Shown: piece by piece, positions 19,015-51,305 of the stretch
Layout: every line of letters begins with the position of its first letter
Position numbering within the stretch: the first letter of the stretch is position 1
NCBI GenBank assembly: GCA_003024785.1
Contig: PUQB01000081.1
Coordinates: forward strand, 62,001 to 126,000
Length of the DNA: 64,000 nt
Direction: 5' to 3'
From: Selaginella tamariscina
Lineage: Eukaryota; Streptophyta; Lycopodiopsida; Selaginellales; Selaginellaceae
Notes under the pieces: model-generated
The model's database searches: none
Told to the model about the DNA's origin: nothing
Seen by the model: the letters and a program-made list of their open reading frames with translations, nothing else
Position numbers and translations under genes: made by a program

Positions 19015-19266
19015 TTACAATTTTTTGAATTTTTGGATTTTTTGGAATGCCCTGCCACCTGCTGCTGGAGCTGGAGCAGCACCTCCAGTAGGGCTCCCGG
19101 GATTGTATCCCGGGAATGGAGCTGCTGGAAACCCCAAACCTGATGATGCCGGTGATGCCGGAGAACTCGAGTAGTCGAAGAAGCCAGTAAGATCCATGGA
19201 TCCGGCATCTAATCGTCTCCTCCCTGAATCAATCTGGAGATGGCGCGAGATGTGGCGCGACCCCAT
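19015..19266 (-). pseudogene. Gly/Pro/Ala-rich N-terminal fragment inside the TIR element
   Basis: An 83-residue frame starting MGSRHISRHLQ and including MDLTGFFDYSSSP, then a Gly/Ala/Pro-rich stretch. It resembles the starts of NAM-like or Myb-like accessory proteins of plant Harbinger elements. The match is by composition and a few residues only. No DNA-binding domain follows, so it is a fragment at best, probably kept when the non-autonomous element formed by internal deletion. Confidence 0.35.
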
Positions 19267-19329
19267 TTCTCAAGAACCCTACAAAAAAAAAACTGATGTG
19301 TCGGCAGCGTGGTAGGAAAAAAGTGACTT

Positions 19330-19365
19330 AAAAAATAAACGTCCTCCAGAGGACGTTTATTTTTT
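19330..19365. repeat. Perfect hairpin, 17-bp arms
   Basis: AAAAAATAAACGTCCTC, a 2-base spacer, then its exact reverse complement, within the TIR element. It could form a foldback or cruciform. No transcript evidence. Confidence 0.85.
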
Positions 19366-19619
19366 GAAGGGAATCTTTTATTTTTTTGGCATATGCTTGA
19401 GTATATATTAGAAATAAAAGATCTTTTATTTGGGTGCAGAACCAGCCCTAAATGTAAGATTCCTTTTATTTTTTTAGCAGAAAAGTAAGTTTTTCTTTTA
19501 ACTCTGGTGCAGAACCAACTTTTACACTTTTTTGGCCAAAAAAGTGGTCAAAAAAAGTGGGTGCGGAGGCCCTATTACGTCTACATTGTCTCTGTCCTAT
19601 ATAAAGATTAATAAATAAT

Positions 19620-20180
19620 TGTGTGTTCATGCGTGTTTCACTTGGGTGAACTTGCAGATATCATTGAAGTCCAACTTATGAAGACTACCGTCCAAAACAC
19701 CTTTTGCGTCTTCTCACAGCCCGAAGTACCGTACATGTTAATAAGCGCATTTCTAAGTGTGACATTTGAGTACCAGCCGTCCGATACAAACATCTTGTGC
19801 ACCGTCAATCGGTTTCTGCGTCACCGATCTAGCATCCAAAAACTTATGAAGGTTACACTGTTCGGTTTAACGTCCATCTTCTTGAAGGAGCTCAACGGCC
19901 GATCATGCCGGACCAACTGAGGCAGTTCTTTCTCTCCGTCGAGTCGAACAGTTGTCTAGCGTCTTCAAGAAGACACACAAAATTATGATAAGTCAAGGCC
20001 TGCCACAATTGTCCGAGCATGTACTTGCCTTTACTTGAGCAACCGTCATCCTGTAGGCTTTACTCCTAAGTAATAGCGTGGGGATATCACTTGTGACCAT
20101 GTATGGGAAATGTGCGTCTCCAAAGGAGTATTCGACAAGCTCACAGAGAAACCATCCAACTGGGAAAGTAATGTATGCTC
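19620..20180 (-). pseudogene. Degraded PLS-type PPR gene, copy A
   Basis: Reading leftward gives NALINMYG at 19749-19726, then SWTSMISAS, with upstream EDARQLF-like and WFLCELVEYSFGDAHFP segments near 20050-20160. These are PLS-class pentatricopeptide motifs, which in land plants act in organelle RNA processing and editing. The frame breaks every few dozen codons and no terminal E or DYW domain is visible. The better preserved paralogue is at 53370-53960. The relic is head-to-tail with ARM-like gene A on the same strand. Confidence 0.65.
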
Positions 20181-21095
20181 TCTCTCTCACACACACACCA
20201 CACAGATTGTATATTTTTAAAACATGTATATTCGTGATACATGGAGCGGAACAACACGTATATGCGTAGCGGAGATGCATGGGAAAGTAATTTATGCTCT
20301 CTCTCTCTCACTCAACACACACGCCTTCAGAGACCGTACCAAGCTCAGAACAGATGCCAAGAGCAATAGTGTATGTGATGTTGCAACAAAGTGAGGTGTT
20401 CATTACCCAGTACAAGTTCAGACCAGGTCGGAGACGGTCATTTGCTGACATGTGTCATATATCTCACCCTTGGTTATGGTTATGTATGGAATGTGAACCA
20501 ATAATTTAGAAGATGCAATCTGTCATGTTAGACTGTGATAATTTATTTTAAAATATGCTAAATTTATTCAAATTTAGTCTTAAGGTAATAAAGGTTAAAA
20601 AATAATAAAAATATTCAGGCAATATACTGGATGAGAATAATTTGAATATAACCATATATATGTATGTATGTATGTATTAGCATAAATATATTTTATATAC
20701 AAAAACATATTTATGTATTGGCATTGTAAGTAATATTATTTATAAATTATAATAAATTAAAATATTAATTTTTAAGTTAATTATAACTATTGAATATTAA
20801 TATTAAAATACTTTAAATTTTCTAAAAAACAGTCAAACGTATGTATATGTAATAAAAGCAATGAAATAGAAAATAAACATAATTATAATTAATTAAAATA
20901 AACACATTAATTTTAAGAATTAATATGAGTATTTTTGAATTTTGCCGACTTTCTTACATACCCAATATGTTAATATCTCTGTTCAATATGTGAGTATGTT
21001 TAAACTGTACTTAAAATCAGTATAATACATGTGTGTACATATTATATTTGTCTAAATACACACAGGTATTCGCGTTAACGACGATTACAACCGTA
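20181..21095. other. Mixed flank, then AT-rich DNA
   Basis: 20181-20515 still aligns with 54110-54540 next to gene B, including CTCTCTC/CACACA tracts. The similarity stops near 20515. 20520-21050 is AT-rich with no gene. Confidence 0.6.
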
Positions 21096-24855: not shown

Positions 24856-25639
24856 TTATAACTAAATTGGGCATGATACATGAAAATAAAATATAAAATA
24901 AATTACTAATTAATTCTTAAGTTTTAATTATTAATTAATTATATAATATATTTAAGTCTTAATTTATAAATTAATCCTTAATTAACCTTACTTAGTGTTA
25001 ATAAAATCAATTTTATCATTACTAAAAATATATCTTTATTCATTTTACATTAATATGGGACAAAGAAATTAATAAAAATATAATTTTCATGTCAATATAT
25101 AATTAATAAACATTACAATTGAAATACATATAGAATATTTATACGATAAAACAATTATTATATTTTATCAAGATATTCATAAAGTAAAGAATATTCTTAA
25201 AATATCTTAGAATATTCATATTATTCTTCAATATAAAATATTTTACAATAATTAAAAAAAAATTAGCAAACATAATCGAACAGAATCTCCTCTAAGTCAT
25301 CGGATTGATGAAATCATTCTTGTTAATATTTTTATTTGTTATCACATGTAACACTCCCACGGATATAGTTAAGAGTTGTCATCTTTATTAATATGTAATA
25401 TGTGATAAGACTAGAAGTGCATAAAGACTTATTTAAAAAATGAAGTTCTTTGATAATAACATTGTGTTGGGTTGCTCTTCTTTAATAAAAATCATAAGAA
25501 AGAAAAGTACCAGGGTATATTTATATGGTGGATATTACTTGCAAAAGTTTTCAATATTCTTCTTTCTTAAGCACGTGTCCAAGTAGTTCATTAGCTTATC
25601 CATGGTAATAATATCAGAAATGGGCTGAAAGTGATTGGA

Positions 25640-26345
25640 TAAATATAAACAATGTTTTGGTTGAGCATAACCTTTTTAAGAGAGTCATCTATCACTAAGA
25701 TATATGCATTCTTCATTATAAAGTTCAATTATTTTTTTATTCTTGAAGAAATATGGTTTGCTTTTCTTACTCACATCATAATATTTCAGAATTTTATAAC
25801 AAAATTGCTGGTCAAAAATTCAATCTTTATTAATCATTTTTTTTTACAATACTACAATGCTTATTAAGCAAATTCAGTAGCAGTGTTAGGTTGTGAAACT
25901 GTATACATGACCAAATCCTCAAAAGTGTTCCTATCTCCTTGAGCTTTTGAAAGAGACGGTTCAACTTTGAACAGAAATTTATCACGACAAGGAATGAAAA
26001 CTTCCTATATGATTTTTCTTTCAATGTCCTCATGCCTTTGTCGATGAAGCAAAACAATATGAACATGGATAATATTGTTGTTGATCTTTTTATCATTTAT
26101 TTATACATTATCTTTACAAGATTCAGATATTGCATGCGCTGGAGAAAATGATTTAGGAATTGAAGGCGATAAAAATGGTGATGCAGAAACTGAAGGAGCT
26201 AAAGATGATGGTTCAAAAACCTCAGCAATAAACTTTTTTGTAACTTACCAAGACAAGCAATGACGATGTTTTGAGTTGCATTATTGTACATTTCCTGCAT
26301 GAACTCTATCATTCTGACACCATACCCCTCTCTTACCTTATGCCA
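25640..26345 (-). pseudogene. Relic of the FCP1/NIF-like HAD gene
   Basis: Aligns in reverse with 49350-50180. Recognisable pieces are RMIEFMQEM (near 26310), HVHIVLLHRQRHED-like sequence (near 26060) and LFQKLKEIGTLLRIWSC (near 25930). The DxN active-site segment is partly deleted and stops occur throughout. The spliced form suggests the intact element has an intron after the exon equivalent to 49385-49450. Confidence 0.7.
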
Positions 26346-26659
26346 TTTTTGAAATACTTATTCTGATGTTTTTTTATATTTATAAAATGATTGTTAGCTA
26401 ACTTTATAATTATTAAGGTATATTATTTACCTTATTAATGTATGATCCATGTTTGAAACAAAAGCTTCTTTGGTTCTTGAGAATTTATTTTCTATAAAAT
26501 ATACATAAAATATACAAAAATGCCTTATGTTACACTCATTTATAACTATCTATCACTCTAACAATTCATTGACAATTCATCTTCATTGTTAACTTTTGAG
26601 CGAGGCAAAAAAGGTTTTAACGTTAATAAAGAGGGACGTATTTGGCAATGTACAATATC

Positions 26660-27620
26660 GTTTAGAAGTTTGAAATTATCTGCACATTCCTGACAATTAA
26701 GTTAATAATCGTATTAATATACCTGGGATCAGCATCATTCATGTAAAATCCAATCCAACAATGATTCTTCTTGATGAAGATGAAGGTGAATGTATCGGTG
26801 ACATGAGCAAAAATTAAGAAATAAATACTTGAAAACGTAAGTTTTAGGTAAGTGTGCAAAATTAAATAATAAATACTTTTTTGTACATGCTTGCATGCAT
26901 AAGCTTCTTCACCAAATCTTCTAACACCCTATATGAAGATGGATATTTTGATACTCGTTGATCCATTATGAGCATTTGAAAAGATTTCCTGCAGGCAATG
27001 ATGTTTCAACAACAAACATTTATATAGCTTGTCATGATTCGTAACATTCTTCTTTATCAGGTTCAACTCGATTCTCCGTTATTGAAGGACTATCATAATA
27101 GAAGATGTCACCGCAATATTCTCCTTTCTTACATTAGTGTGCAATAGATTCTTACTTAGATCTCCCAATTGGTTTATCCACTGGATAAGCATATCGTTGT
27201 CTGTCACATACAAATATTTACTGACCTTCTCGTATGCTAGAGCCGAGGTTTAACTCAGTTTATGGTAGTGTATTCTTAATCATTTTTTTGAAGTATTTGA
27301 TCGTCTTCAGCTCTATTGTCTTGAGATAAAAAAGAGAGTGGGACTGATGTTGTTAATTTGTAGTTTGTCATTAACCACCAAATCAATTAACACATCTATC
27401 TTCTTCATTATTGTTCCATTTAGAGGCTTTAACCATGTGAGCTTGAAGTCATTGTTCACATCATTTGCATGTTGGACAAACTTAACCTAAGAAGAAACAG
27501 ATGAATGAAGGGGAGCCCTCGGAGAAATCTATAAAAAAATCTAGTAAAACGTCAAAAGTGTTCCTTTTATAAACGATTCTATGATCCCTACCCATTTGTT
27601 GAAGACTTTATCCTTGAAGT
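26660..27620 (-). pseudogene. Relic of the ParB-methyltransferase gene
   Basis: YFLIFAHVTDTFTFIF and GFYMNDADPRYINTIINLIV at 26830-26680 match the block encoded at 48385-48540, and earlier segments match 47560-48300. The SAM-binding motif region lies outside or is lost. A ~70-bp piece at about 27490-27560 is inverted relative to its surroundings. Confidence 0.75.
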
Positions 27621-29129
27621 AAAAAATTATTAAGGCATGCCTCTTTATGCACATTAAAGCTAGTTAAAGAAATTAATGAGAAAAATATTAAGAATTTAAC
27701 ACCAAAATTCTATAATTTTAAAATAAATTTGAAATCTCTCATCCTCATATATTTCATTATTGTATTTAATAATATATTTTCGTAATTATTTTAAACTTTT
27801 TGTAATGACTTTATAAATTCCATTCGAGCTTTGTTGTGTTTCAAATTGAAACAATATAATATTGTTTAATTTTTTAATTTTTGATAATTTTGTAATTTAG
27901 TGTTCATAAATTTTAAACTCATTTTTATTTTCTTCTTTTTTTATAAATTATAAGCCACATGCTAAATAAAAACTTAATTTATAAAAATAGCTAGATCAAT
28001 TTTATAGATATTAGTTTCTTATGATAAATCTATTAACGATTACATAAAAAAGTTTGTGTGTGTGTGTGTGTGTGTATGTGATTACAAAAGAGTAAATCTG
28101 TTTTAATAATAAATTACTCAAATAAATATTGTTTCAACTAGAATTTAATATTACAAATTATTTTGGTAAAAAAAATAATTCAAGACAAACAACAGATTAT
28201 TATGTATTTAAGTGGGACTTTAAATTAAAATACTATTGAATGAGACTTTAAGTTAACATACATTTCTTATACTAAATTTAATTATTTGTATCTTAAAATT
28301 TTAATAAAAATACAACTTACTTAAATCGTTTACAATGTAACTCACATTTATAAATAATATGAAATATTGGTACATGACAATACTTTTAAAATTATAAAAT
28401 GGTGAAATTACATATCAATTGAATAGATATTATAAGACTCAAAAGTTTACCCATAAGGGAAGATGTAATAAAAATTTAATTTCAATAAGTACTTGCACAT
28501 TTGTTATTTATTTTTAACTTAAAATAATCTCAATAATATTTTAAATATATACTTAAGGTTTTCAAAACTTAAAAAGGATTTTATTAGTGTTATAAAGTTT
28601 TAATTATAAAATAGAGGATTTTATAATATATTTTAAAATAAATTTTAAGGATAAAATAAAGTTAGTATATGATGTTTATACAAGACCTTATTTTATATAT
28701 ACACAAATTTATACAAGAACACTTATTAACTAAAGAATATTCTCTATATAAATATTTTATATTTATTTACAAGATATTCATATAGTATATAATGATATCA
28801 ATAATAAACTTATTAACATAAATTATGTAAGTTCAATATGCTTGTTTACAAAGATTAAATTTTATACTCTTTATCATGCACAGGCACATACATGATAATC
28901 ACAATGTTATTAATAATGATTTAAATTAATTTTCTAATTCATATTAATATCTCATTTGTTATATATAATATGCACTGTATATTTAAAATGTTCTAAATCA
29001 TAATCATTTAAGCCATAACATTTAAATAATTTATAATGATTTTGAATAATTATAAACCATATTAAATACATGTATTAATTTTATATTCTTTTAATATATA
29101 AATGTATTTTGGATTTATACATTATGTGT

Positions 29130-35630: not shown

Positions 35631-36597
35631 TATACATAACTAAATGTGCTAACAAACACTCTACATGTATCTATGGGTCATCCATTCACACACACACACA
35701 CACGCAAACTAAACAATGCGTAAACATATAAAATGTAAGCCTACAACTACATAGTTCACATGTAGTGTATAAACTGAACAGTATGTTATGTTAATATACA
35801 CTATTTACTTGCAAGGTCAAACCGAGATCTCGTGTATCTAATACGAATACGTACATGTTATATTTACATAAGCAGATTATATGCATAATAGTTGTTTATG
35901 GCACACACACACACGCATATAGACTATACAATATGTAAACTACATAGTTTACATATGTATATATTGACATAGTATAAACTATACGTATATATAAAGAATG
36001 AAATCTACCTTTTGATGGTCTTCATGTTTGGTATCAGCTTTCTTATGAAAATATGCTTCACTGGCAAGCGATATCACTTTCCATTGTTCTTATTCAAGCC
36101 TAACCAGAAATAAATAATAATAACTAATAATAAAATTAAAATTTTATTTTTAATTAAAGTATTCTCATTTTAACACACGAGCCTAGGACTTTGGTTCCAT
36201 TAAATAATTGCCTCTCAACCTACTAGTTTAATTGTCAACAATAAAAATAATATACAAACATATATAACGTAATCCAATGAGCTAAGTAACACGATGTTAA
36301 AGTTGACTTGTTGATTTCACTTTCATGTGAGACAAAGTTTTGTGTCACCGAGAACACGATGGCTTTCATTATAAATACAAAACTTAATTGTTTTTTAATA
36401 CAAGTATATTATAAAAAATATATGTAATCCTACAAACACGTAGTGTATAAACTAAACAGTATGGAAACATATAAATGTAAGCCTACAACTACACAGTTTC
36501 ACATGTAGTGTATGGCAGATACATGCATAATATTGTTTATGGCACACACACAGGTTAGACTATACAATATAAAACTGAATAGTTTTGTATAGCAAGT

Positions 36598-36616
36598 TTA
36601 ACTAAAATGGGCATGG
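36598..36616 (+). repeat. Left terminal inverted repeat of the giant element
   Basis: TTAACTAAAATGGGCATGG. It matches the reverse complement of the right end except for A/G and one extra G. Confidence 0.75.
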
Positions 36617-37092
36617 CTATAGTCCCATTTCCTAATAATTAGCAATTTTAGCTATTTAATTAGCATTTTCTAATATTAAAGGAATATTCTTTAGAATATA
36701 TGTTTGAAAAAGAATATTCTTTAGAATATTCTATTTTGTATTCTACCCTTTAATAAATTATAGCATTCATTGAACAAAAATTAATAACATTATAAAAGTA
36801 GAAGTATTAAATTATATAATATATTGCCTAATATAACAATTAAGGAAGAGCATAAGAGGTACATTATATAAATATTGATGTTGTTATTAAAATATTAATA
36901 TTTAAATATAACATTATTAATTAAAAATTTGTAGTAGTAATAATATATATATAAAATCCTATAATAATATAGTCAATCTTCCATATCATTTTTTAAATTT
37001 ATATAGTTAAGTATACAATTTGGTACTATTATTAAAGAGTTTATATAATTATGAATATTAAATATATGATATTTTATAATTTTGTAATTGCT

Positions 37093-40000
37093 TTAAGCTT
37101 CAGAAAACATACATTCCCTTGCAGTTTTGTTAATCGTGACTTTATCAACGCTTCTTGACATCCACCCATATCGAATGGATTTAACATTTATAAAACATGC
37201 TGGGTCTTTTTGATTGGGAGACCATGTTTTCTCTAGGCATCCATTATATCTTTCGCTCTCCTTCTCGTGTCGCCTTTTTTGTGGTTTGAACCATGCAACC
37301 TTAACAATACTATTTTTTGTGATTACTTCAGGTGTGTCGATAATTTGACCCATCCAAATAGGCTGATTATATGACGCATCTGGAGTAATGAGAACCATCA
37401 TTAGTTTTTGAAGATCCTTGCAGCAATCAAAGTATGCTTTAGGTTTTTGGTTCCTTTGTCCAACAAAGTGTGGGGTTTGCACTTCCACATCACTACTGGC
37501 TTCTATGTCGTCTATGCTCAGTGATGTCATTTCAATCTCCTCTCGCCACCTTGTTTTAGGCCAGAAAGGGTGTTGCAATTCTGTACTTGTGACAGTAGGC
37601 CCTTCCAACTCTCGAACAACAGTCTCCCAATAGTTGACCACATGCTTATATAGTTCTGAGTAACCAGTTGCCTTATCAGAATTCTTTGGCATCGATTTTT
37701 GAACCCATGCCACATATTTTTTGATGCCATCAATAATAACCTCTTGTTCCTTGAGCTGGGCACTCAATGGAATAGGGTCTGGTTGTCCTTCTGGGAGAAG
37801 TGGCTTTCCATCCTCTCCACTTTTGAAGAGCATTAAGCCCTCTTTCGGTAACCACTCCTGCTCTGATGGCCGTAACTTGTACTGCATAATAGGTATACCA
37901 TCTCGTATGGAGAAAAAGAATTGTAGCGGCACAAGGTGACCAACTAAAGAATCACTCCCTTCTTTTATATACTCCTTGAGAAATTTTTTGAAGTCTGGCA
38001 CCTCAGTCACAAGCAAAGCACAACTTTTTTTGGAGATGCAATTTTCAAAAAGATTCATCATATGCGGTAAGGTAAGTGCACTTGTCCTTTTTGTAGAGTT
38101 GGAGACCTTGCTGAAGAACGCATCAATATCTTCATGAGTGTGACCAACCATAAGGAAACTGAGCGTGATTGTTTCAAACACACCTTTGGCAACAAGCATT
38201 GACAAGTATGCTAGCACATATCTAGAAAATAAAAGTAAGTATGAGCTTGAGAAACCCTTAAGTAAAATGATTTACCTATTTTTGTTCTCGCCTGCACAAT
38301 TATCCATCTGTAAAAGCAAATGACGAGGAAGCTTATTTGATGTTGAGGACACATGTACACTATTTGAGCTAGATCCCTCCACTGAACCAGAACTCTCAAC
38401 AGGGCCATCTGTTTTTGTGCAGGCTGTTGACAATGCCTCTCATATTCCCAAGTAGCCTCAAGTGCAGACGTGTTCATGAGAGCATTATGTAAAGGTTGAA
38501 GGTGTTGTTTCTTCACTTTGAGATCACTGATAGGACTTGTCTGTGAGTGGGCTTCAAGGTTTCTGAAACACATGGCTAACGACCCAATAGTGAAATTGGA
38601 GTCGCTAGACCAATGTGGAAGTGAAAAGTGTCCATATGACTCACAACCGTGTCCATGTGTTAGCACACCTGTCAATGAAATCGGAAGTTTCATGACATTT
38701 CCAAGGCACTTTGGTGTTGCAAAGAGCTTTGGAATGCTGGTCTTTGAATGATCCATCTTGTCATGGATCAAGCACAGGTACTCTGATGGGCGTGACACAG
38801 AAAGCATGCGGTGTGCATAGTACTGAGACCGGCAAGTTTGTTGTGCAATCATGTGGGCCTCCATCTTCTTTTGAATGGCAGTGATCTCCACCAAGGTTTT
38901 TGCACAAGCCTCTGCAGCCTTCAATGATGTACAAGTGTCACACTTGGAAAAGCTAGAGTGTTTTGCAATCTCCACATCCTTAAAATGAGTATTCCATATG
39001 TTGTTGAAGGTACCAGTGCAGATTGCTTGGAGCCCCATCAAACTGAGGCACTTGTTCACATGTTCACACAGCTTCAATTGAGTGTAGATTGAAGGCAAAA
39101 CCTTGAGATTTTCCCTGACCCCTGCATTTGTGGTTCGGCATTTGTGAGGCATCCTGTCTGCATTTGCTTCCACAAAAGCCTTGAGTATCTCTATGGCTGC
39201 CATGATGTGAGAGCGGGTTTTGACCAAGCGAGTGTTCCCATGAACTGAGGTTCGCGCTCCATCTAGCCACTCATCCCTCCGACGGTAGAACGTGGTCTTT
39301 GGGATCCCGTATATACTGTACCAAGCTTTGAAGCAGATGGCCACCTTATTAAATACCATGGATGTACTCTGATAACCTGTGTCCGAGGCCATTCCATCAA
39401 TACACCCAGTTAGTGCAGCATATACAAACTCATGCCTTTGCTTTTGGGTGAGCATACGAAAGACATGTCTACATTGGGTAATTTCATTCCGGTCTGCCAT
39501 CTGACAACACTTCTTCTTGCAACAGTCAATCGTGGAAATGCTCGTAACACTTTCGGAAGATGTAGGATCCATCTTTACCCTCTTGCTGAAACTTGCAGGG
39601 GAAGATCTACAACCCATGAATCGCCTTTTTCTTACAATAGGACCAATGCAAGGAACCTCTTCAAATATGAGTTGTTCTTCCGGGTTGTTATTATTGAAAT
39701 CCAACCCAGAATATGTTGAACCATCTTGCCGTCTTAATTCAGATGTTCGCCACCTCACGAGGGATCCAGGATACAATGTGCCATTAGGTGAAACCTCTGT
39801 CACAACTACACCCACGAAGTCGGACCCTAGTTTCTCTTCTGACACTGCTTCCATTGGATTTATAGCTGTGATGATGCCTCTTCCGACTTCAATCTCACGA
39901 AGAAAGAGAATCACCTCATCCATCACAGCAGGCAAGCCATCATCTGGTAAACTCGTGCTACTATTTGTTTGTGACTCTGCATATTCTGTGTCAGCCTTGA

Positions 40001-40223
40001 CTTCATCCAAATTCCACAATACAGGAGAACCCTCCTCAAATTCCATTCCCAGAACCTCAACATGCTTGTAAATGGTGTTCACCCATACGTACACACAAGA
40101 TCCTTGGGCAATATTGTGACATGATGCATTATTATCTCGAACTTCCACAGTTCCAGTGCCAACTATCTCGTTGTTCCGAAGAAGACATACTTTATCTCCA
40201 GTATTAAACATATTGTCCTGCAC
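37093..40223 (-). CDS. Large DDE-type transposase (two exons, one frameshift)
   Basis: About 1,030 residues. Exon 1 runs 40223-38276, the intron is 38275-38222 (54 bp, GT-AG) and exon 2 is 38221-37093. The start is MQDN or the MFNTG a few codons later. N-terminal ~250 residues: small beta-rich domain (QGSCVYVWVNTIYKHVEVLG), then a Cys cluster (CCKKKCC) and helical region. Catalytic core: LIHDKMDHSKT (first Asp, near 38745), MDNCAGENKN across the intron (second Asp, near 38310) and FLMVGHTHEDIDAFF (acidic third residue, near 38140). This pattern fits DUF7869-like transposase cores; that name is from memory. Near 38430 the frame shifts by one base (EYERHCQQ to CTKTDGPVESS), so the second Asp is reached only after the shift. 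The gene points outward toward the left TIR. Confidence 0.85.
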
Positions 40224-40363
40224 ATAAATAATTGTATTATTTATGATATCTGTTTATGCAATATTTTAAGAAATCTGAATTACGGTTACTTAATAATATG
40301 CATATGCAATAATACATAATTATGTTTAGAGATAATATCTCATGTTTGATTAATACAACTGAT

Positions 40364-40970
40364 GGGCGGGATTAATCCCGCCCACGAATCCCTCCGACGA
40401 GGAACGGTCGGCGGGATTAATCCCGCCGCCGACTCAACCCCTTCGGAGAGAGTCGGCGGGATTAATCCCGCCTTGGACTCCCTCCGACAAGGAAGAGCCG
40501 GCGGGATTAATCCCGCGCCTCTTCCTCCTCGGGGGAGTCCGGCGGGATTAATCCCGCGGCTCTTCCTTGTCGGAGGAGTCCAAGGCGGGATTAATCCCGC
40601 CCACAATTCTTACGACGGGGAATGGGTGGCGGGATTAAACCCGCACATAACTCTCTCCAAAACTATGATTTCAAAGAGATCTCGGGATAAATCCTGTCCC
40701 CAAATCCTTAAAACAGGGATGTGGTGGCGAGATTAATCCCGCCACCCCTTCCCTGCCTCCTAAAATGGTTGGCGGGATTAATCCCGCCGACAACTCTTTT
40801 AATAAATTCTGGTAACTCTTCATCAGTTGAGAAGGTTATCGGCGGGATTAATCCCGCCACTCTTTTTCAGTGGCGGAGAAGCATTGCCCGAGAGATGGTG
40901 GCGGGATTAATCCCGCCACCTCTTCGAAGAGGCGAAAAAGAAATGGCCGGATTAATCCCGCCGCCCCGGT
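40364..40970. repeat. Palindrome array 1 (~13 copies, ~45-bp spacing)
   Basis: The core GGCGGGATTAATCCCGCC recurs with centres near 40371, 40416, 40461, 40506, 40548, 40590, 40634, 40687 (degenerate), 40732, 40777, 40847, 40906 and 40951. Most steps are 42-45 bp. Spacers are GC-rich and partly similar (CTCCGAC-GAGGAA). The array lies about 140 bp upstream of the transposase start, so it is probably part of a promoter or a transposase/host-factor binding region. Confidence 0.95.
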
Positions 40971-40979
40971 TAACCTAGA

Positions 40980-43613
40980 ATATTAAGTTAAAAATTTAAA
41001 CGATAAACTAAAATATATTATAATCCTAATGCATTCCTAAACCCCTAAATTGTAATTTTAAGAGAGAATGTAAGAGAGTGAATCTTTATAAGTATTTTTA
41101 AATTTGTTTATAATACTTACTTGTAAACAGCACTGAAGGCGCCGTGCTTTCCTATAAAGAATAGCACCCAATTTAATCTCGCTCCTGAGATGATCACTAT
41201 GAAGAAAAAAGAAGATCTAAAGAGTGAAAAATACAGAAAAGAAACCCTTGCCGGAGAAAGAACCAGATCTGAATTTGAGTGGGAAATTAAATGCATTTTC
41301 AAATTTACATGTCAGACCGACAATACATATGTCAGAAATTCAAATTTTTTAAAAAGAACAGAAAATAAAATTTAAGATGAGTTGACACAAATATCCGACA
41401 CTCTGACATATATACTCTCCAGTTCCAATGTATTTTAAAATTGCATTTAATGTTATTCAAGTGATTCAAGCTGTTTAATATTACGAAATTTTAGACTATA
41501 TTCTACATTCTTAGTATTCAAGTATATTTATATTATATATATATAAATATATACTTATACAATAAATAAATTGATATATTATTATGTATCATTTAAAATA
41601 TATTCATAGTCTGTTTATTATTATTATTTTCTTAATTACTCGAGTATTTAGTTTTCATTTCCTAGTATCAATGGGATATTCTTTATTATTTTATTAATAT
41701 TTGAAGAATATTCTAATATTAAACCTGATTATCATAATTAAATTAGTCTTGTTCTTAATTATTGCAGTAATTATTCTACATTTGTATATATTAATGGGAT
41801 TTTCTCAATTAATTTGTTATTATTTCAAGAATATTCCTGTGTTAAACCTTATTATCAATATTAAATTAATATTATTATTAAAACTATATATGAAATATTA
41901 GATAAAATGATGTATTATTATGTATAATTTAAAATATGTTCATAGTGTGTATATTAATATCATTTCCTTAATTACTTGAGTAATTAATCTTCTTTATATT
42001 AATGGGATATTCTTTATTATTTTCTTATTATTCCAAGAATATTCCAATATTAAACATGATTATGATAATTAATTTAGTTAATTATTTGAGTACTTAATTT
42101 ACATTTGTATATATTAATGGGATTTTCTCAATTAATTTCTTATTATTTCAAGAATATTTCAATGTTAAACCTTTTTATCAATATTAAATTAATATATATT
42201 ATTAAAACTATATATGGCTATATATTAGATAAAATCATATATTATTATGTATAATTTAAAATATGTTCATAGTGTGTTTATTAATATTATTTTCTTAATT
42301 ATTCGATGTTTGTTTTGCACACATATATAAACACAATCATAAATTTACACACGCATTACAAGAACTTACAAAAACACATATGCACACACATGCACAACCC
42401 TAAACCAAACTGAAGAAATATGTTGCTTCTTTATTGAAAACATCATGTTCAACGCATGTATGATATATGTACTCAATCTGTGTGTATGTAACACATTGAA
42501 TTTACATGTGTAATATTTATATTAAGCTTGTTGGGAGCAAACCCTAAACCCTAAACCCTAAACCCTGTGTATACATGTGTGTACAAAAATAATTTTTCAA
42601 CACTCTCTCTTCACACCATGCATGATCCATCCTAAACCCTAAACCCTAAACCCTAAATGTAACACAATGAATTTACTCATGTAATATGTATGTATGTCTG
42701 TGTGTATACACGTGTGTATGTATATGTGTACTCTGTATGTATATATGTGTACTTTCTGTCTTCTCTCATACATACACACCATGCATGATCCATGTTAATA
42801 TGTACTGTGTCTCTTCTCTCAAACATACACACCATGCATGATCTATAATATGTACTCGGTCTCTCTAATATTGTACTAATATGTATGTATGTCTGTGTGT
42901 ATAATACACACCATGCATGATCCATAATATGTACTGTCTCTCTTCTCTCATATACTATGTATGTATATCTGTGTATAATATGTGTAAGTATATATGTGTA
43001 CTAATATATGCAATGTGTACAAAAATAATTTTTCAACACTCTCTCTTCTCTCATACATACACACCATGCATGATCCATCCTAAATCCAAAACCCTAAACC
43101 CATGTAATATGTATGTATGTCTGTGTGTATACACGTGTGTATGTATATATTATGTGTATTAATATATGCAATGTGTATGTATGTATTGATACACATGAAA
43201 CTTTAACACTCTCATGGACACACACATGTTAAATCCCTGCATGATTTATATTTTTGGGGTGTATGTGATACACCCACGCACACGCACGCGCTAATAATAT
43301 AATGAAAGAATATTCGTTTAGGGCGAATCTATATTTTATTCTTTTTAGGGTTTAAGTATATTCTCAGAAGGAATATTCTATTAGGGTTAATATATATATT
43401 TAATTCCTTTAGGGTTTAGGTATATTCTTAGGGTTTCAAGAGGCGGCGGCTGTGAAATCGGCGGCGGCGGCTGTGCACACAGGTGAGATCTGTGTGTGTG
43501 TGTGTGTGTGTGTATGTATATATGTATAGGAGTGTGCGTATAATTTTATGTGTACCAGTATCTATAAATTTTTTTTATTGATCTATCTCTCCCACACACA
43601 CGCACACTGCTTT

Positions 43614-43644
<31 letters not shown>

Positions 43645-44362
43645 CAATGCATATTAACAAATAGTATACAACACTAGTTTATATATATGCTTATATATTC
43701 ATATGGGTTATATATCTATATACACACATATATATATGTGTGTGTTTATCTGTATAATTTTATTTATTTATTAGTTTTATCTCTCGCACACACACGCACA
43801 CTCCTGTGTATATATATGTGTGTGTGTGTTTGTTTATCTGTATGATTTTATTTGTTTCGCTCACACACGCATACACACAATATACATATACACATATATA
43901 TATACCTATATACATATATACATACATATATTATGTGTACCAGTATATAATTTTTTTTATTGATCTATCTCTCCCACACACACGCACACTGCTTTAATAT
44001 ATATATATATATATATCAATGCATATTAACAAATAGTATACAACACTAGTTTATATATATGCTTATATATTCACAGACTCTCTATATCTATATACACACA
44101 TATATAGTGTGTGTTTATCTGTATAATTTATTTATTTATTAGTTTTATTTCGCACACACATGCACACTCCTGTGTTATATATGTGTGTGTGTGTGTGTTT
44201 GTTTATCTGTATGATTTTATTTGTTTCGCTCACACGCATACACACGATATACATATACACACATATATATACCTATGTACACACATATATTATGTGTACC
44301 AGTACTGTATAATTTTATTTATTTATCTATCTCTTGCACACACACGTACACTCCTATACAAC

Positions 44363-44405
<43 letters not shown>

Positions 44406-44460
44406 TATGTGTGTGTTTTTTTTATAATTTTTTATTTATTAATTTTCTCTCGCACACACG
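40980..44460. other. Gene-poor core of the giant element
   Basis: Very AT-rich to about 42350, then rich in (CA/TG)n, ATGCATGATCCAT repeats and telomere-like repeats, with a small GC-rich patch (GGCGGCGGCTGTG, near 43441). No credible protein frame. 43590-43720 repeats almost exactly at 43940-44060, and 43800-43930 at 44170-44300. Confidence 0.75.
42541..42657. repeat. Interstitial plant telomere repeats
   Basis: Four CCCTAAA-type units at 42541-42566 and four at 42631-42657, with a degenerate set at 43079-43100. All lie inside the transposon core between the two palindrome arrays. Confidence 0.9.
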
Positions 44461-45690
44461 CTAAGCCCCTCGAGCGGCGGGATTAATCCCGCCGCCAAGG
44501 CCCTTCACGCAGGCTATGGGCGGCGAGATTAATCCCGCCGCTCTAGGACAAACCGAAGAGCGGCGGATTAAATCCCGCCGCTCACCCATGCCCTGCGCGG
44601 AATGCGGGGGATTTATCTCGTCGGCAATGGCCTGTCTGAAGGCCCTAATGGCCAGGATTAATCCCGGCGGATTCCGCGCAGGGCATTTACAGGGGATGGG
44701 CGCGGGATTAATCTCGCCGCTCATGAGGCTAACCGAAGAGCCTGCATGAAAGATCCTGCACGGAAAGCTAACTGAAGAGCCTGCATGACATGTCCTGCGC
44801 GTAAGGCGGCGGGATTAATCCCGCCGACCAGGGAATTCACGCTGGACATGAACGGCGGGATTAATCCCGCCCCACGCTCATGCCCTTTGCGGAGGGCGGC
44901 GGGATTAATCCCGCCGCTCAGGCACTTCCGCAGGATATAAGCGGCGGGATTAATCCTGCCCCACCCATTCCTGCTCAAAATGCCGCAGCCAATTATATGT
45001 GTAAGCGCCATTGGCCTGCCTGAAGGGCCTAGGCGGCGGGATTAATCCCGCAAGATTTCGCACAGGGCATTGGCGTTCGGCGGGATTAATCCCGCCGACT
45101 AAGGCCCGAGTGAAGGGCCTGGGAGGCGGGATTAATCCCGCCGACGCCAATTCCCTGCGCGGAATCGGGCGGGATTAATCCCGCCGCCATTGGCCTGCCT
45201 GAAGTGCCTAGGCGGCGGGATTAATCCCGCCCGATTCCGCGCAGGGAATTGGCGTCCGGCGGGATTAATCCCGCCGCATAGGGACCGAGTGAAGGCCCTG
45301 GGCGGCGGGATTAATCCCGCCGAGTCTTCAATGCCTGTTGGAGGAATGAATCCCGCCACCCTTCTTTTTCTCCATTGGTGAGTCGGACCAATCCAAACGT
45401 TTCTGTCTGAGACGTAGAAGGTTTTCAACATACCAATGGAGAGAATTGGGAAGGGTGGGGAAATTCATTTAACCATCCTTACATGGTGGGCGAGATTAAT
45501 CCCGCCTCCTTTCTGGAGTCACTGAAGGGGTGTGAGAAATAAATCCTGCCCAGTTCTCTCTGAGACCGAGAAGGGTGGCAAGATTAATTCCGCACTCCCG
45601 TTCAAGGCCTCCAGAAAGGTGGCGAGATTAATCCCGCCCACTCTTTCAGGAGGCATTGAAGGGGTGGCGAGATTAATCCCGCCGCACCTT
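44461..45690. repeat. Palindrome array 2 (~23 copies, ~45-bp spacing)
   Basis: Same 18-bp palindrome as array 1. Centres step by 43-46 bp (for example 44814, 44860, 44904, 44949, then 45041, 45085, 45131, 45174, 45220, 45264, 45310), with gaps near twice the period (92 bp). Spacers carry their own inverted pieces (CCCTGCGCGGAAT and ATTCCGCGCAGGG). Several cores are altered to GGCGAGATTAATCCCGCC, mainly at the right end. It lies about 340 bp upstream of the ParB-methyltransferase start. Confidence 0.95.
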
Positions 45691-45797
45691 CCATGTGAAT
45701 ATATATGTGTATTAGTATATATAAGTTGCATATCTCATTTTATTTACTTTTATCATCTTATCATAATATTTCGAGTAAAAGCTAGGAATCTATGTAA

Positions 45798-45884
45798 AAC
45801 TGTCCAGAGCTCACATTTGTGGTGGTTCTAAAACGAAATGTTATCTTTCTTTTGCACTAACACAAATGTGAGCTTCGGACAGTT
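45798..45884. other. Long-armed stem-loop, miRNA-precursor-like
   Basis: Arm 45798-45821 (AACTGTCCAGAGCTCACATT...) pairs with arm 45861-45884 with about two mismatches over 24 bases, around a 39-base loop. Arm length and total size suit a plant small-RNA precursor, but a decayed foldback element would look the same. Confidence 0.5.
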
Positions 45885-46025
45885 AATTACGTCTACTTCT
45901 CTCTGTGTATTATTTTTGTATATTCGGGTTTATACAAGTGTGTGTGCGTTTTTATATAATTTATATTATAGTGTATTATTTTGCAGAAGGACGATTTGAT
46001 CAAACAAGGAGATCGAGTCATTAGT

Positions 46026-49000
46026 ATGGAGTCGTCGTCAAATTCTGGGTAAGAATTAAAATAAAATCTGTTATACTCGGATACTTGAACTAATCATTTT
46101 TGTATTCAGATGTGGAATTGAGGTGACATTAAAGACAAGAGCAGGAGAAGAGATGGGCAGGGGGATTCTGGAATCAACTTGGCCATATTTTAAGATAAAT
46201 GGGAAGCGCATTGGAGCAACCATGGCTGCTGTCAAATTAACCTCTGTCACATCTCATGGACAAGCAAAACAATGGAAAGTAGATTCGCTAGTCAAGCACC
46301 CGAAAGCAGGCTGCGAACCCAGATTGGACGATGCTCGACACATATGCCTTGTTCCATCCAATGTCACGTTCTCGGATCCAGAGGTCGTCAGTTACAACAT
46401 TAATTTCGGGTGGTTTTGTCGACTTGTGGATAATGACGTTCACGTGTTCACTAATGATGTTGACCTTGGAGTTCTTCTTCAACTCAACGAAAGCCCATCT
46501 ATGGAGGGGATCCATCTGGATGTCTACTTCGAAATCTTCAGACTCATCGAGTAGGTGTATTGTCAGGAGATATTGCTTCACAATACAGAAAATCAGCAAG
46601 TGGAGCAATCTTCCCTCTTCACATTGAAGAAGAACACAGCGACATCATAATGGAGATTGAGAGGGTGGCTCGGTCTCAGGTTCTCTACAGATCACGTTCA
46701 ATTTGCTTAGGAGCTTTGGGAGCTGGAAGAGTGTACCGAGAACACTAGAACAGCTGCAGTCGGGGATCACACATGTTGATTCGGATCGCAAAAGAAAATC
46801 ATCAATCGTTTTGTCAGCTGCACCTGTGGCATCTCATGCTGCAATAAGTCACAAGGAAATGATGTTGGATGATAAGATTTATCCTTGTAGGGTTAAATAT
46901 TGCAGCGTCAACCCAAACTTCAATTACAGGCCACTCAACCAGGAACGTGTAGCTGAGCTCATGGAGAAGATGAAGGACGACAATTCTTATACCGTTCCAC
47001 ATAATGCTGTTTTGTGTCCATACTATGAAAGAAGGAAGGGCGTGACAAAGTCTGGATCACAACACCAGAACAACTCATGAAGATTCAGACGGAGAATAAA
47101 AATCTATCAAGTACTACATCATTAGTGGCCAGCACACAATAACGGCAGCCCAACGACTTCTCGATGAACACAACAAAGGAACGATGGCAACAAAACTTTC
47201 CGAGCATACCCGTGAGAAGCTGACAAAAAGATCGGCGTTTTTAGCTAAGCCGAATCTCACAATCGAGCAGTACCATAAGTTATCGGCGGAATGGGACGCT
47301 GCCGACACCAACCACTACAACAGCAAAATATGGGAGAAGTTTAAACACACGCGAGCCGTGTGGGAATCTCTTCAGCGACCACAAAGAGCTACCGCAGGGA
47401 ATACACAATCTGCGGAATACCGGGTAAGCAAATTGTTTGGGCGGGATTTATCTCGCCGGTATATTAATCTGTCTTTTTCCTCAGAGAGTTGAAGAAATTG
47501 CAGCAGTTGATTTTGCCCAGGTGGGCGGGAAGGAAACATCCTTTCTGATGATGTTGATTTCTTGCCCCGAAGATAGGATCTTTGCCAAATGGTTGGGGAT
47601 TATGGAATCCTTTTCAAAAGGAACACTGAAGAAGAAGCAGACAAGTGAAGGGGAGCCCTCAGAAAAGTCTGCAAAGAAACCCAGTAAGACGCCGAAGGCT
47701 AAGTCTGTTCAATCTACAAAGGATGTAGACAACGATTTCAAGCTCACATGGTTGAAGCCTTTAAATGGAACAACGATGGAGGAGATGGAAGTCTTGGCTG
47801 ATTTGGTGATCGATGGCAAACTACAAATTAATAACAGCAGCCCAACCTCTCCTTTTCATCTCAAGGCAATGGAGTTGAAGACGGTCAGGCATTTCAAGGA
47901 GTGGTTGGGAATACACTGCCACAAACTGGGTTGGACCTCGACTTCAACATATGAAGAGGTCAGCAAATATTTGCATGTGACGAACGATGATATGCTTGTC
48001 GAATGGGTGAACCAATCGGAAGATCTAGGCAAGAATCTATTGCACGCCAACGCCAAAAAGGAGAACATTGGGATGACGCCTTCTCTTATGGCAGTCCTTC
48101 AGCAGCGGAGAACCGAATTGAACCTTATAAAGGAGGATGCTACGAATCACGACAAGCCCTACAGATGTTTGTTGTTAGATTCGGAGACTTTATGGGGTAA
48201 CATCACTGCTTGTAGGAAACCGTTTCAATTGTTCGTGATGGATCGGCGGGTGTCAAAAAATCTTTCGACAGATAGGGCACTAGAGGATCTGGTGGAGAAA
48301 CTTAGCCGTGCAAGCATATACATAGAAGGTATTTATTATTGAATTCATGCTTGCGCTCTTCACTGATACCTACTTTTTCAGGTATTTATTTCTTGATTCT
48401 TGCTCATGTCACCGATACTTTTGCCTTCGCCTTCGCCAAGAAGAATAGACATCGTTGGACAGGATTTTATATGAACGATGCTAATCCCAAGTGCATTGAT
48501 ACCGTTGTTCACTTGGTTGTTAGGAATGCGCCAAACAATTTCAAGCTTCCAAATGACTGGCCAGGCATCTGTTTGCACTCCAACGGCCCTGAACCTCCAT
48601 CCGATACACCGATAGGTATGAGTGACGTATTCGGCAATGTACGTTATCCAAACATTACAAGTCAAGCGGCACGGAGCATCGTCAACTTGATCAGGGGTCC
48701 TCACAGTGATGCGTGGGTTTTTGACTACTGCACTAGGGGGTCCGTCTTGAAGGAGTGTTACCTTCGGCATACATGTGTGTTTGCCGTTGAAAAGGATAAG
48801 ACCATGGTTGAGGACCTGAACAAGTGGATAGATTGGGTCTCAACTGAGTACCCCAACGAATCCATAAAGGCGTATTTGAGAAAGTTCCCTCCAGATAAGT
48901 GCGATAGCTCTGAAGGTGAATCTGGTTCAATCTCGGAGTCTGAGAACGAACTTCAATCAGATATTAGACCGGAAGTTATCTCGAGGAGTACAGAACATTC

Positions 49001-49127
49001 GCACACTCCAGGACCCATGGAAACATCAATAGAAGATGCAGAAGATCTTGAACCATCTCACAAGCGGCTTAGACCTTCTTCGCCTCACTCAGAAGGTAAT
49101 AGCGAAGAAGAATTGATAATGAATTGA
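46026..49127 (+). CDS. ParB-like domain fused to a permuted amino-methyltransferase-like domain
   Basis: Exons join with GT-AG borders: 46026-46048, 46110-47423, 47485-48328 and 48382-49127. The N-terminal region (IEVTLKTRAGEE...) is unrecognised. A ParB/Srx-like domain follows: CRVKYCSVNPNFNYRPLNQE (near 46890) and YYIISGQHTITAAQRLLDEH (near 47110). A long helical linker and a Lys/Ser-rich segment come next. The C-terminal part has the beta-class methyltransferase order: FQLFVMDRRVSK where DPPY is expected, GIYFLILAHVTDTFAF, a middle region, then NITSQAARSIVNLI and the SAM-site-like DAWVFDYCTRGSVLKE with VFAVEKDK. DPPY reads DRRV, so catalysis is doubtful. Frameshifts lie near 46545, 46740 and 47050-47110. 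The tail is acidic (EGESGSISESENE). ParB-methylase fusions are known from phages; that this is one is my inference. Confidence 0.65.
47439..47459. repeat. Single palindrome of the array type inside an intron
   Basis: GGGCGGGATTTATCTCGCCGG lies in the 61-bp intron 47424-47484 of the ParB-methyltransferase gene, outside both arrays. It is a diverged copy of the 18-bp palindrome. Confidence 0.8.
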
Positions 49128-49299
49128 TAGAGTGATGAATAGTTGTAAATGAGTGTAACATAAGGCATTTTTGTATATTTCTTTTATATTTGTACAGAAA
49201 ATAAATTCTCAAGGATTAATGAAGCTTTTAGTTCAAACATGGGTCACACATTAACAAGGTAAATAATATACCTTGATAATTTTAAGGTCAGCTAATTAT

Positions 49300-50564
49300 C
49301 ATTTTGCAGATGTAATGAAATAATTGAGAACATGGATTTTCAGCATTGCCATGAGGTAAGAGAGGGGTTTGGCGACAATTTCTTGTGCCACATGTCAGAA
49401 TGACAGAGTTCATGCAGGAAATGGATAATAATGCAGCTCAAAACATCGTTACCATGGGGGCCACTTCATCATCATTTTTATTGGCTTCAGTTCCGAAATC
49501 AATTTCTTCAGCGCATGCAATATCTGAATCTTGTAAGGATGATGTACAATTAAATGATGAAGGGATAGGCAACGAGATAGTGGCAACGGATAAATGTGAA
49601 AGGGAGCAAACAAGTGATTTGCAAAGTATTCAAGAGGCAACGCATCTCATGTTACTCATGGCCATATTGTGTTGTTGGATGTCAATGGTGTTCTGCTTCA
49701 TCGACAAAGGCCCAGGATAGGAAAAAAACAGAAATCAACAAGGAGATTTCATTCCTTGTCATGGTAAATTTCGATATGATATTATTTTTCGTCCAGGGTT
49801 GGATCGTCTCTTTCAAAAGCTTAAGGAGATGGGTGCGCTTGTGGGGATTTGGTCATGCATGCAGATTCATAACTTAACACCGCTGTTGATTTACTTAAGA
49901 AACATTGTAGTGTTGCAGAAGAGGTGATTCGTAAAGATTGGATTTTTGACCAGCGAATGTGTATAAACCTCTCGAATTTCACAATATAAGAAAGGAAAGC
50001 AAGCCATACTTCTTCAAGAATGAAAGAATAATTGGGACTCATGGGGAGATCAGTCGCTTAAGGATAACGAAGAATGCACATATCTTAGTAGTAGACGACT
50101 CTCCTCAGAAGGCTATGCTCAACCAAAACATTGCTTGTATTCATCCAATCACTTTCGATCCATATTCTGATACCGATATCATGGATGAGCTAGTGAACTA
50201 CTTGGATACGTGCCTCAGAAAGAAGAATCTCGAAAATTTTTGTGAGCAGTATCCACCGTATCATACATTTCCTGAAGCTTTTCTTTCTCGTGATATTGAA
50301 TTTTATAAAATGAAGGATAGCAACCGGGCGCTTTATAATATTATTCTTAAGGAACGTCAGTTTTTAGATGAGCCTTTATGCAGACCTTCTCTTATCACAT
50401 CTTATGTATTAACAAGGATGGCAACTCCCAATTGCATTCGTGAGAGTGTTAAGTGGTGGCAACAACATCAAGATATTGACCAAAATGATTTGATTAATCC
50501 GGAGAGTGATGATTTAGACAAAATGAAAAGATTTCTTTGTATGATAGAAAGAAAGTATTTATAA
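49300..50564 (+). CDS. FCP1/NIF-type HAD phosphatase-like protein (frame-broken)
   Basis: First part (49385-49650): RMTEFMQEMDNNAAQNIV and a Ser-rich acidic stretch. Then, in a shifted frame from about 49645: HIVLLDVNGVLLHRQRP, the HAD nucleophile loop with the usual second Asp replaced by Asn; YDIIFRPGLDRLFQKLKEMG and VGIWSCMQIHN (motif II region). From 49959: KPLEFHNIRKESKPYFFKNE and ILVVDDSPQKAMLNQN, the NIF acidic motif IV. It ends MDELVNYLDTCLRKKNLENF and a helical tail. The FCP1/NIF family dephosphorylates Ser/Thr in proteins such as RNA polymerase II CTD; here the activity is unproven. Indels near 49640, 49730 and 49900-49970 break the frame. It is the last gene before the right TIR. 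Confidence 0.8.
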
Positions 50565-50821
50565 AAAATTAACATGTTGATAAGAAAATGATTTCATTTG
50601 TAATTATGTTTGATAGTATTTCTTCATTATTGTAAACTATTTTTAGAATAATATGAATATTCTAAGATATTTTAGGAATATTCCTTACTAAGTAAGGTTA
50701 TGAAGGATTAATTAATTAATTAATTAATATTTAAGGCTTAATTACATATTAATTAAATGATTAATTAATAATTAAAACTTAAGTATTAATTAGTAATTTA
50801 TTTATATTCCCATTTCACGTA

Positions 50822-50846
50822 TCATGCCCCACTTTAGTTATACAAC
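50822..50846 (-). repeat. Right terminal inverted repeat of the giant element
   Basis: Reading inward (reverse strand): TATAACTAAAGTGGGGCATG then ATACGTGAAA. The relic at 24856 has TATAACTAAATTGGGCATG then ATACATGAAA. Confidence 0.8.
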
Positions 50847-51305
50847 ATGCATGTTATGTTTACATAGTATAAACTATACGCTATTATTAAAGTATAAAAT
50901 CTCACCTTCGGTAGTCTTCACGTTTGGTGTCAGATTTCTTGTGAGAATATGTTTCATAGAAAGAGTATATTCACTTTTTTCACAAGAATCTTGTAAATGT
51001 ATGGTTTAAAACTTAGTATTTATAAAATATAAGTTTACTTTCAAAAACAATGTTTAATCGTTGCCACCAACACATGTAATAAAAGTAAGTTAATTCATTG
51101 TGAAGGACAAAAGTTATCCGTAAATTTAAGAATAGAGACCAATAAAAGTTTTAATGAAAACTTGTTTTAAAATATTAATTAAAGATACATTATTTCTACA
51201 TTATCACATTGTGAAATACACATATATTCATAATATGAGTATCTAGGCCAATGGGATTTTGGTTAAATTTTTATAATAAGAGATATAAATCAAATCAAAA
51301 GAATA

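Follow-up and report, generated by a model that had tools for sequence, protein, structure and literature searches.

How has a DNA transposon of some 14 kb, with three genes and two arrays of one palindrome, come to be repeated so often in a plant genome, and do the genes that accompany its transposase have any part in that expansion? The question is raised by a locus of Selaginella tamariscina in contig PUQB01000081.1 of assembly GCA_003024785.1, of which positions 62,001 to 126,000 of the forward strand were analysed (64,000 nucleotides, here called the window, whose numbering is used throughout unless another contig is named). Autonomous eukaryotic DNA transposons usually have few intact copies and one or two genes, and more than a thousand copies is unusual for an element of 14 kb. 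The locus offers a natural and testable case of accessory proteins possibly aiding the amplification of a large transposon, and perhaps one of a ParB-type module put to use with palindrome arrays in a eukaryote. The explanation that we favour, with moderate confidence, is that of a high-copy, recently active, autonomous plant DNA transposon, likely of the Sola superfamily, with likely accessory proteins: a giant three-gene element with a DDD-type transposase and, on the present evidence, no methylation system.

A preliminary description, made from the letters of the window, had taken positions 36,594-50,846 as one element. The single bounded element was found again, with a length of ~14.3 kb, and comparison of copies moved its limits to about 36,589-50,852. 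A search of the window with the terminus pattern TAACTAAARTGGG gave just two exact matches, which face inward: TAACTAAAATGGG at 36,599-36,611 on the plus strand and TAACTAAAGTGGG at 50,828-50,840 on the minus strand. Alignment of the copies pushes the terminal inverted repeat (TIR) 10 bp farther outward, to ATGCAMGTTGTAACTAAARTGGGCATG, which makes it longer than originally noted, ~27 bp with 2 differences. The insertion site can be read from a paralogous locus that the element splits, as had also been claimed. The stretch 30.0-36.5 kb plus 50.9-53.3 kb duplicates 5.6-13.9 kb in blocks of 74-91% identity, and the duplicate shows the site uninterrupted: the local repeat units 10,746-10,946 and 35,872-36,080 reveal it, the break lying between 36,585 and 50,851.

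The genome was surveyed in the window's own assembly (300.7 Mb). The terminus occurs there 2,008 + 1,993 = 4,001 times, against 6 + 4 = 10 occurrences of the reversed control, and this bears out the matching inverted ends seen in the window. Ten further copies were read whole. They are a selected sample, nine being inward-facing pairs of ends from the first 100 termini listed, and the tenth, C14, having been chosen through a listed terminus and a transposase match. These copies measure 13.8-14.9 kb, and all have matches to the three genes in the same order as well as both arrays; the end beside the transposase is of the A type (damaged in C14) and the opposite one of the G type. The arrangement first described, a leftward transposase gene and two rightward genes, is present in all ten, and the co-occurrence of the ends in whole copies (nine end pairs, one found via its transposase) upholds the reading as a single DNA transposon. 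The search for termini and the alignment of copies proposed at that stage defined the TIR, a target site duplication (TSD) of 4 bp and three genes per copy. In a sample chosen less selectively, the expected site of the second gene was read at 16 places with an exact transposase match on the minus strand; one fell beyond its contig, and in 13 of the remaining 15 the second gene was present on the expected strand, in agreement with the claim that transposase and cargo belong to one element. Across contigs C1-C142, a transposase 31-mer lies 8.8-11.3 kb off in the right orientation for 31 of the 46 second-gene 31-mers, compared with 1 of 46 on the wrong side. Two copies, L046 (C592:180,599-182,798) and L055 (C280:458,357-460,556), are rearranged; in one the second gene is inverted and in the other the HAD gene lies ~2.5 kb closer to the transposase.

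Counts of short words give the scale of the expansion. A transposase 31-mer over the GHTHEDIDAF motif has 1,703 exact copies in the genome (control 0) and a second-gene 31-mer 649. The palindrome of the arrays has 27,128 exact copies (control 0), and division by the mean of 19 exact palindromes per element, taken over 11 elements, gives about 1,400 elements. If most copies are whole, 1,400-1,700 elements of 14.2 kb would amount to an estimated 7-8% of 300 Mb. The copies resemble one another closely. Among the best-scored genome matches (drawn from 5,443-6,962 candidates, and uninformative on old copies) 53 of 109 for a transposase exon of 375 amino acids reach the full exact-match score, the remaining 56 rounding to 100%; for a second-gene exon (283 amino acids) every one of the 137 matches is at 100%, as are 113 of 150 for a HAD exon (198 amino acids). 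No internal stops occur among these matches for any of the three genes, and the window's own copy is counted in the transposase and HAD lists. Compared with the window copy, C21, C2, C14, C7, C46 and C3a differ at no more than 4.1% of synonymous sites in any exon, and nearly always at 0-1.8%. C29 is like these young copies save in its transposase, with up to 4.0% synonymous difference and 9 stop codons. Older copies are C1a, C1b and C3b, whose synonymous difference in one exon reaches 10.8, 7.1 and 16.2%, respectively. The amplification burst is recent, because many copies are near-identical at synonymous sites, and it is practically certain that a DNA transposon and a burst are concerned.

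The window copy has frame shifts, one in the transposase gene, four in the second gene and several in the HAD gene, and every other copy read has its own set of frame breaks. Gap openings and mismatches in the right-hand gene block number 31 and 20 in C21, 44 and 10 in C2, 34 and 18 in C14, 54 and 20 in C7, 36 and 18 in C46, 47 and 25 in C29 and 25 and 24 in C3a; on the transposase side gaps are not always in excess (20 and 28 in C14, 27 and 43 in C46). A reading as pseudogenes was rejected, since the breaks vary by copy and indels often exceed mismatches, and the breaks are probably residual long-read assembly error in repeats. An open natural version of the second-gene exon 2, of 438 codons, is found in C46. 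The introns were located by eye, on the basis of splice signals and a continuous frame.

The flanks were compared in a set of 16 elements, consisting of the ten copies, the window copy, one 13.8-kb pair of A-type ends and four short elements. At one fixed boundary a 4-bp duplication is exact in 7 of the 16, each with a different sequence (AAGA, AACG, AAGT, CAAT, ATTA, TTAA and CCAT); shuffled pairing of the flanks gave a mean of 0.5 exact duplications and a maximum of 6 in 20,000 trials. The TSDs of C14 and C1a match after a one-base shift of the boundary made by eye, and the window copy has no clear target duplication. Genome-wide, 62 short elements of 213-228 bp have exactly the same ends, in the manner of miniature inverted-repeat transposable elements, and by eye they join about 110 bp of one end of the large element to about 110 bp of the other. 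Two sequence subgroups can be seen by eye among the short elements (for instance C1:1443145-1443369), with GGCATG or GGAATG after the terminus.

Profile searches on the three proteins, also proposed in the preliminary description, returned families for the transposase and the HAD protein and none at threshold for the second protein. The transposase matches PF25273 (DUF7869) with E 8.4e-47, and its N-terminus has a weak match to Transposase_23 (E 0.054). The 78 protein relatives found are mostly unnamed metagenome proteins and include those of Physcomitrium patens, Ceratodon purpureus, Riccia sorocarpa and the bivalve Mya arenaria; part of them also contain PF26133, which we take to be DUF8039. 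Identity to the moss and liverwort DUF7869 proteins is 31-53% over most of the domain, and the invariant residues are the same. D518, D676 and D718 (numbering of P0004), in the contexts HDKMD, LDN and GHTHEDID, are invariant in the 67 of the 78 relatives that were aligned, and we infer that they are the catalytic residues. The DUF7869 protein would be the transposase that cuts at the element ends, which gives a likely function to proteins listed by Pfam as of unknown function. No mention of DUF7869 was found in the papers searched, hence no description of it as a transposon family.

The Sola superfamily was reportedly defined in a 2009 paper. The excerpted text of a 2023 review, PMC10741241, gives for it a DDD transposase, a 4-bp TSD, TIRs of 11-1124 bp, a length of 2-9 kb with some elements over 15 kb, and an occurrence in the moss Physcomitrella. 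The element shows the 4-bp TSD, the DDD triad, a TIR length and a size within these ranges. It probably belongs to Sola, because TSD length, aspartate triad, size and moss relatives fit; the placement is by described characters. The earlier statement that the combination could be placed in no named family needs correction to this extent, the transposase being DUF7869 and the profile of TSD, triad and size fitting Sola by description. The extra genes and the internal palindrome arrays of the element are absent from the Sola description in that excerpt of PMC10741241, and the excerpt of PMC6431247 has no mention of Sola or moss. No published report of the element was recognised in a literature search to which Repbase and most subscription papers were external.

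Two other groups of large or composite elements were considered and rejected. CACTA or En-Spm elements have two proteins and arrays of short motifs; like the present element they are large and high-copy, and the weak Transposase_23 match recalls them, but in the present element the arrays lie in the interior, 5' of genes. Its termini are ATGCA...TGCAT and its TSD is 4 bp, in contrast to the CACTA termini and 3-bp TSD given in the same excerpt (PMC10741241). The TSDs of piggyBac and Kolobok are TTAA-specific, but in the element TTAA is one of the seven exact TSDs and the other six differ. According to the excerpt of PMC9587614, KolobokP is a DDD/E transposon of eukaryotes in which a second gene for an enzyme is present. 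Its terminal direct repeats are long and its endonuclease is of the homing type; the likeness lies in an extra gene beside the transposase, and the difference in the varying TSDs and the nature of the extra proteins.

The second protein consists of a transposase-like N-terminal domain, a ParB-like middle and a C-terminal part in which no family is recognisable. Its N-terminal domain and that of the transposase align in hhalign with E 3.3e-4 (profile of 39 relatives), compared with 0.38 for the reversed control and 0.23-0.47 for five shuffles, and in a single BLASTP comparison with the transposase N-terminus with E 5e-5. Because of this resemblance the second gene more likely arose within the transposon than by host capture. 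In the middle, ParB-type spacing and an ISGQHTITAA box were seen by eye. Once a 25-residue loop is cut out, this segment matches phrog_1033, a ParB-like partition protein, with E 0.0057, below the family threshold, and more weakly phrog_26754, a ParB-like partition nuclease (E 0.15), together with the Pfam families PF20188 DUF6551 (E 0.052) and PF03235 GmrSD_N (E 0.084). The uncut read-through of the window copy also gives GmrSD_N (E 0.13), which we take to have a ParB-type fold. The uncut clean segment finds families that are not ParB, PH_BUD3_C (E 0.076) and phrog_21535, of unknown function (E 0.034), and a search of PDB sequences with it gave no ParB-type match in solved structures. Reversed and shuffled controls of the segment had matches in 4 of 10 cases, the best with E 0.018. 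These matches are at most suggestive of a ParB-like middle. In the excerpt of PMC12704722, a 2025 survey, eukaryotes too have the ParB fold, frequently in connection with mobile elements and joined to other domains, one of the partners being DUF6551. Likeness to the ParB-domain fusion proteins of phages and plasmids lies in the weak ParB-type signature, the arrayed palindromic sites and the mobile element; differences are the nuclear plant transposon, the similarity below thresholds and the lack of a recognisable methyltransferase or of ParA, for which the Pfam scan of the three element proteins gave no partner.

For the C-terminal part the preliminary description had assumed a methyltransferase, so that of its ParB-methyltransferase-like gene the first half is retained as suggestive and the second is not. 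The second protein has nothing above family threshold in Pfam, PHROGs, NCBIfam, PADLOC or PDB sequences. A designed repeat protein in the PDB was matched twice (E 5.4e-6 and 0.016) over 39 residues, which was taken as chance or composition. Motif I of methyltransferases has FxGxG glycines; the corresponding stretch here is FDYCTRGS, with no glycine-rich motif at the expected place. An N6 or N4 DNA methyltransferase was rejected on three grounds: no methyltransferase family match in Pfam, PHROGs, NCBIfam and PADLOC, no DPPY-type motif ([DNS]PP[YFWH]) in the second protein, and no glycine-rich S-adenosylmethionine motif.

In the window the 18-bp palindrome GGCGGGATTAATCCCGCC is matched 33 times when up to 3 mismatches are allowed, compared with 0.01 expected. 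Its two arrays, which had been reported near the 5' ends of the genes, are present in 11 of 11 copies, always 5' of the two divergent genes, with 11-19 and 12-25 units (up to 2 mismatches) at a median spacing of 44-46 bp. Such a location, 5' of both genes, suggests that the arrays act in promoter control. The shared N-terminal domain and the ParB-like domain offer two natural hypotheses as to what might bind the palindromes. In the window copy, observed over expected CpG is 1.09 and 0.98 in the arrays and 0.41 in the transposase gene. The arrays appear as local CpG-rich islands amid an AT-rich window. Between array 2 and the second gene lies an imperfect inverted repeat (45,798-45,884) that matches its own complement at 76%, and the central AT-rich stretch has telomere-like CCCTAAA repeats at 42,540-42,660, a two-unit word of which is found in 9 of 11 copies.

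The identification of the third gene as HAD phosphatase-like is sustained by a match of its window read-through to PF03031 (NIF) with E 1.1e-9 and 38.6 bits, the cut-off being 21.8. In four other copies, which were picked for this feature, the gene has an open frame of 402-406 codons. The catalytic motif of HAD enzymes is DxDG; the four open copies have DVNG, and phosphatase activity is uncertain because the first aspartate is kept and the second is replaced by asparagine. A PDB search with the HAD protein gave weak matches, mostly to a cyclin-kinase inhibitor.

How long the two extra genes have accompanied this type of end can be judged from the remains of a related element in the same window, a decayed and inverted right half that the preliminary description did not mention. 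It has the same gene order, with an identity to a burst copy of 43-48% in the main blocks of the HAD gene and of 47% in the second-gene middle, and no transposase match in 27,633-24,857. Because the relic carries the right end and both genes at 43-48% identity, the two genes have long been associated with this right end. Selection was followed by the ratio of nonsynonymous to synonymous differences per site (pN/pS), pooled for C1a, C1b and C3b against the window copy. It is 0.37 and 0.47 in transposase exons 1 and 2 and 0.37 in second-gene exon 2, for which the three older copies taken singly give 0.22-0.46. Six young copies, in whose substitution counts assembly error is mixed, have 19 nonsynonymous and 25 synonymous substitutions in transposase exon 1 (ratio about 0.2). 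From these comparisons, purifying constraint on the transposase is clear, and second-gene exon 2 is likely to have been constrained over longer time, with no sign of this within the burst. As constraint shows in the transposase, probably in that exon and not in the rest, an accessory role of the second protein is put slightly below even odds.

In the mechanism that would follow from an autonomous element with accessory proteins, the second protein would bind the palindrome arrays, the transposase or both. It would have an accessory function, either in the control of the two promoters or through assembly or spreading along the element. For the NIF-type HAD protein the part would be that of a passenger or of a helper modulating host proteins. 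The parts of this proposal are not equally probable. That the second gene encodes an accessory DNA-binding protein, for transposition or regulation, is a serious possibility that falls a little short of even; that the palindromes are its binding sites is more tentative, and that the HAD protein contributes to amplification is doubtful.

Several results weigh against the favoured explanation. The TSD is inexact in 9 of the 16 elements, the window copy included. Among the 15 sampled copies, one has the second gene inverted and one shows the HAD gene only in the stretch read, and in contigs C1-C142 the second-gene 31-mer is in place for just 31 of 99 transposase 31-mers; this word is missing in 5 of the 11 whole copies, all of which have the gene, but some transposase copies may lack the second gene. 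The hhalign probability for the shared N-terminal domain is just 38%. No relatives of the second gene were found in viral contigs, nor in a database of 5.8 billion proteins, moss proteins among them, by a search that needs shared exact words (queries were the whole protein and its methyltransferase-like part; 7,992 and 367 candidates were scored). Finally, pN/pS in the older copies is 0.61 in second-gene exon 4, 0.88 in the HAD exon and 1.8 in second-gene exon 3, and the six young copies have 35 nonsynonymous and 3 synonymous substitutions in second-gene exon 2 (ratio >1). The values near or above 1 are what would be expected if both genes were passengers, a DUF7869 transposon having captured two plant genes once, which then spread by hitch-hiking in a burst without a function in transposition. 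Gene capture by transposons is established, and the NIF phosphatases that the HAD protein resembles are a known cellular family. This alternative is nevertheless rather unlikely: the relic speaks for an old association, the N-terminal domain of the second protein resembles that of the transposase, second-gene exon 2 has a pN/pS in the older copies like that of the transposase, and copies with an open HAD frame exist, though four were picked as such. An alternative that concerns the copies themselves holds that they are not recent and owe their near-identity to gene conversion or to assembly errors. Assembly of long repeats is error-prone, and the copies carry many private indels, but flanks differ among the ten copies, which show several distinct TSDs, their central regions and array lengths vary while their exons are near-identical, and older copies, with up to 7-16% synonymous difference in an exon, are also present (C1b, C1a and C3b). 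This alternative is extremely improbable.

Two further alternatives concern the palindromes. One is a ParB-parS-like nuclear system, in which a nucleotide-gated clamp would load at the palindromes and spread, serving replication, segregation or escape from silencing. The 18-bp palindromes, repeated 11-25 times at ~45-bp spacing in 11 of 11 copies, are reminiscent of such a system, as are the ParB-like PHROGs, DUF6551 and GmrSD_N among the weak best matches of the loop-cut segment and the frequent tie of eukaryotic ParB folds to mobile elements in the excerpt of PMC12704722. Set against this are the lack of any match at family threshold, controls that also gave matches, an uncut segment that finds other families and nothing ParB-type in solved structures, and the absence of ParA among the three scanned proteins, which leave such a system quite unlikely. 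A narrower form, a transposon-encoded clamp in which a transposase N-terminal domain is joined to a ParB-type module that loads at the palindromes, with the phosphatase as helper, is decidedly unlikely too. If it were true, spreading would switch the promoters, protect from silencing or couple excision to replication, and it would explain a 14-kb autonomous element at well over a thousand copies, many of them near-identical. The other alternative is self-marking, in which the second protein would methylate the element's DNA at the palindrome. By eye, its C-terminal part resembles the order of beta-class methyltransferases, and the arrays of the window copy keep their CpG while the transposase gene is depleted; the failure to match any family in four libraries, the missing [DNS]PP[YFWH] motif and a FDYCTRGS stretch without FxGxG glycines make this very improbable. 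Our preference remains with a DNA transposon, likely Sola, and its likely accessory proteins, whose features are collected in Table 1.

Table 1. Positions in the window of the parts of the element, its left flank and a related relic.
Feature	Position	Strand	Remarks
Decayed, inverted relic of related element's right half	24857..27633	-	right end TAACTAAATTGGG at 24,859; HAD gene; second-gene middle
Left flank, repeat unit paralogous to uninterrupted site 10,746-10,946	35872..36588	.	ends at left TIR
Left (transposase-side) TIR, A type	36589..36614	+	ATGCAAGTTGTAACTAAAATGGGCATG in most other copies; window copy slightly different
Transposase gene, DUF7869	37093..40211	-	two exons; intron 38,222-38,275 (54 bp; by eye); frame broken once, near 38,440
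Palindrome array 1, upstream of transposase gene	40365..40962	.	12 units at ~45-bp spacing (up to 2 mismatches)
Central AT-rich low-complexity stretch, 27% GC	40963..44475	.	short CCCTAAA repeats; varies between copies
Palindrome array 2, upstream of second gene	44476..45683	.	17 units with up to 2 mismatches or 20 with up to 3, spaced ~45 bp apart
Second gene, about 970 amino acids	46026..49127	+	four exons; introns 46,049-46,109, 47,424-47,484 and 48,329-48,381 (by eye)
Single palindrome in second-gene intron	47440..47457	+	with up to 2 mismatches, present in 10 of 11 copies
Third gene, NIF-family HAD phosphatase-like	about 49400..50564	+	PF03031; frame breaks in window copy
Right (cargo-side) TIR, G type	50823..50852	-	ATGCACGTTGTAACTAAAGTGGGCATG in most other copies; window copy slightly different

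Scans of the window with Rfam (gathering thresholds) and for tRNA genes gave no match. The window also contains a large segmental duplication, 5,557-20,517 and 30,000-54,543, in blocks of about 74-91% identity. One of the duplicates is split by the element and the other by an insertion at ~13,870-19,590, whose long plus-strand frames look by eye like Ty3/gypsy gag-pol.

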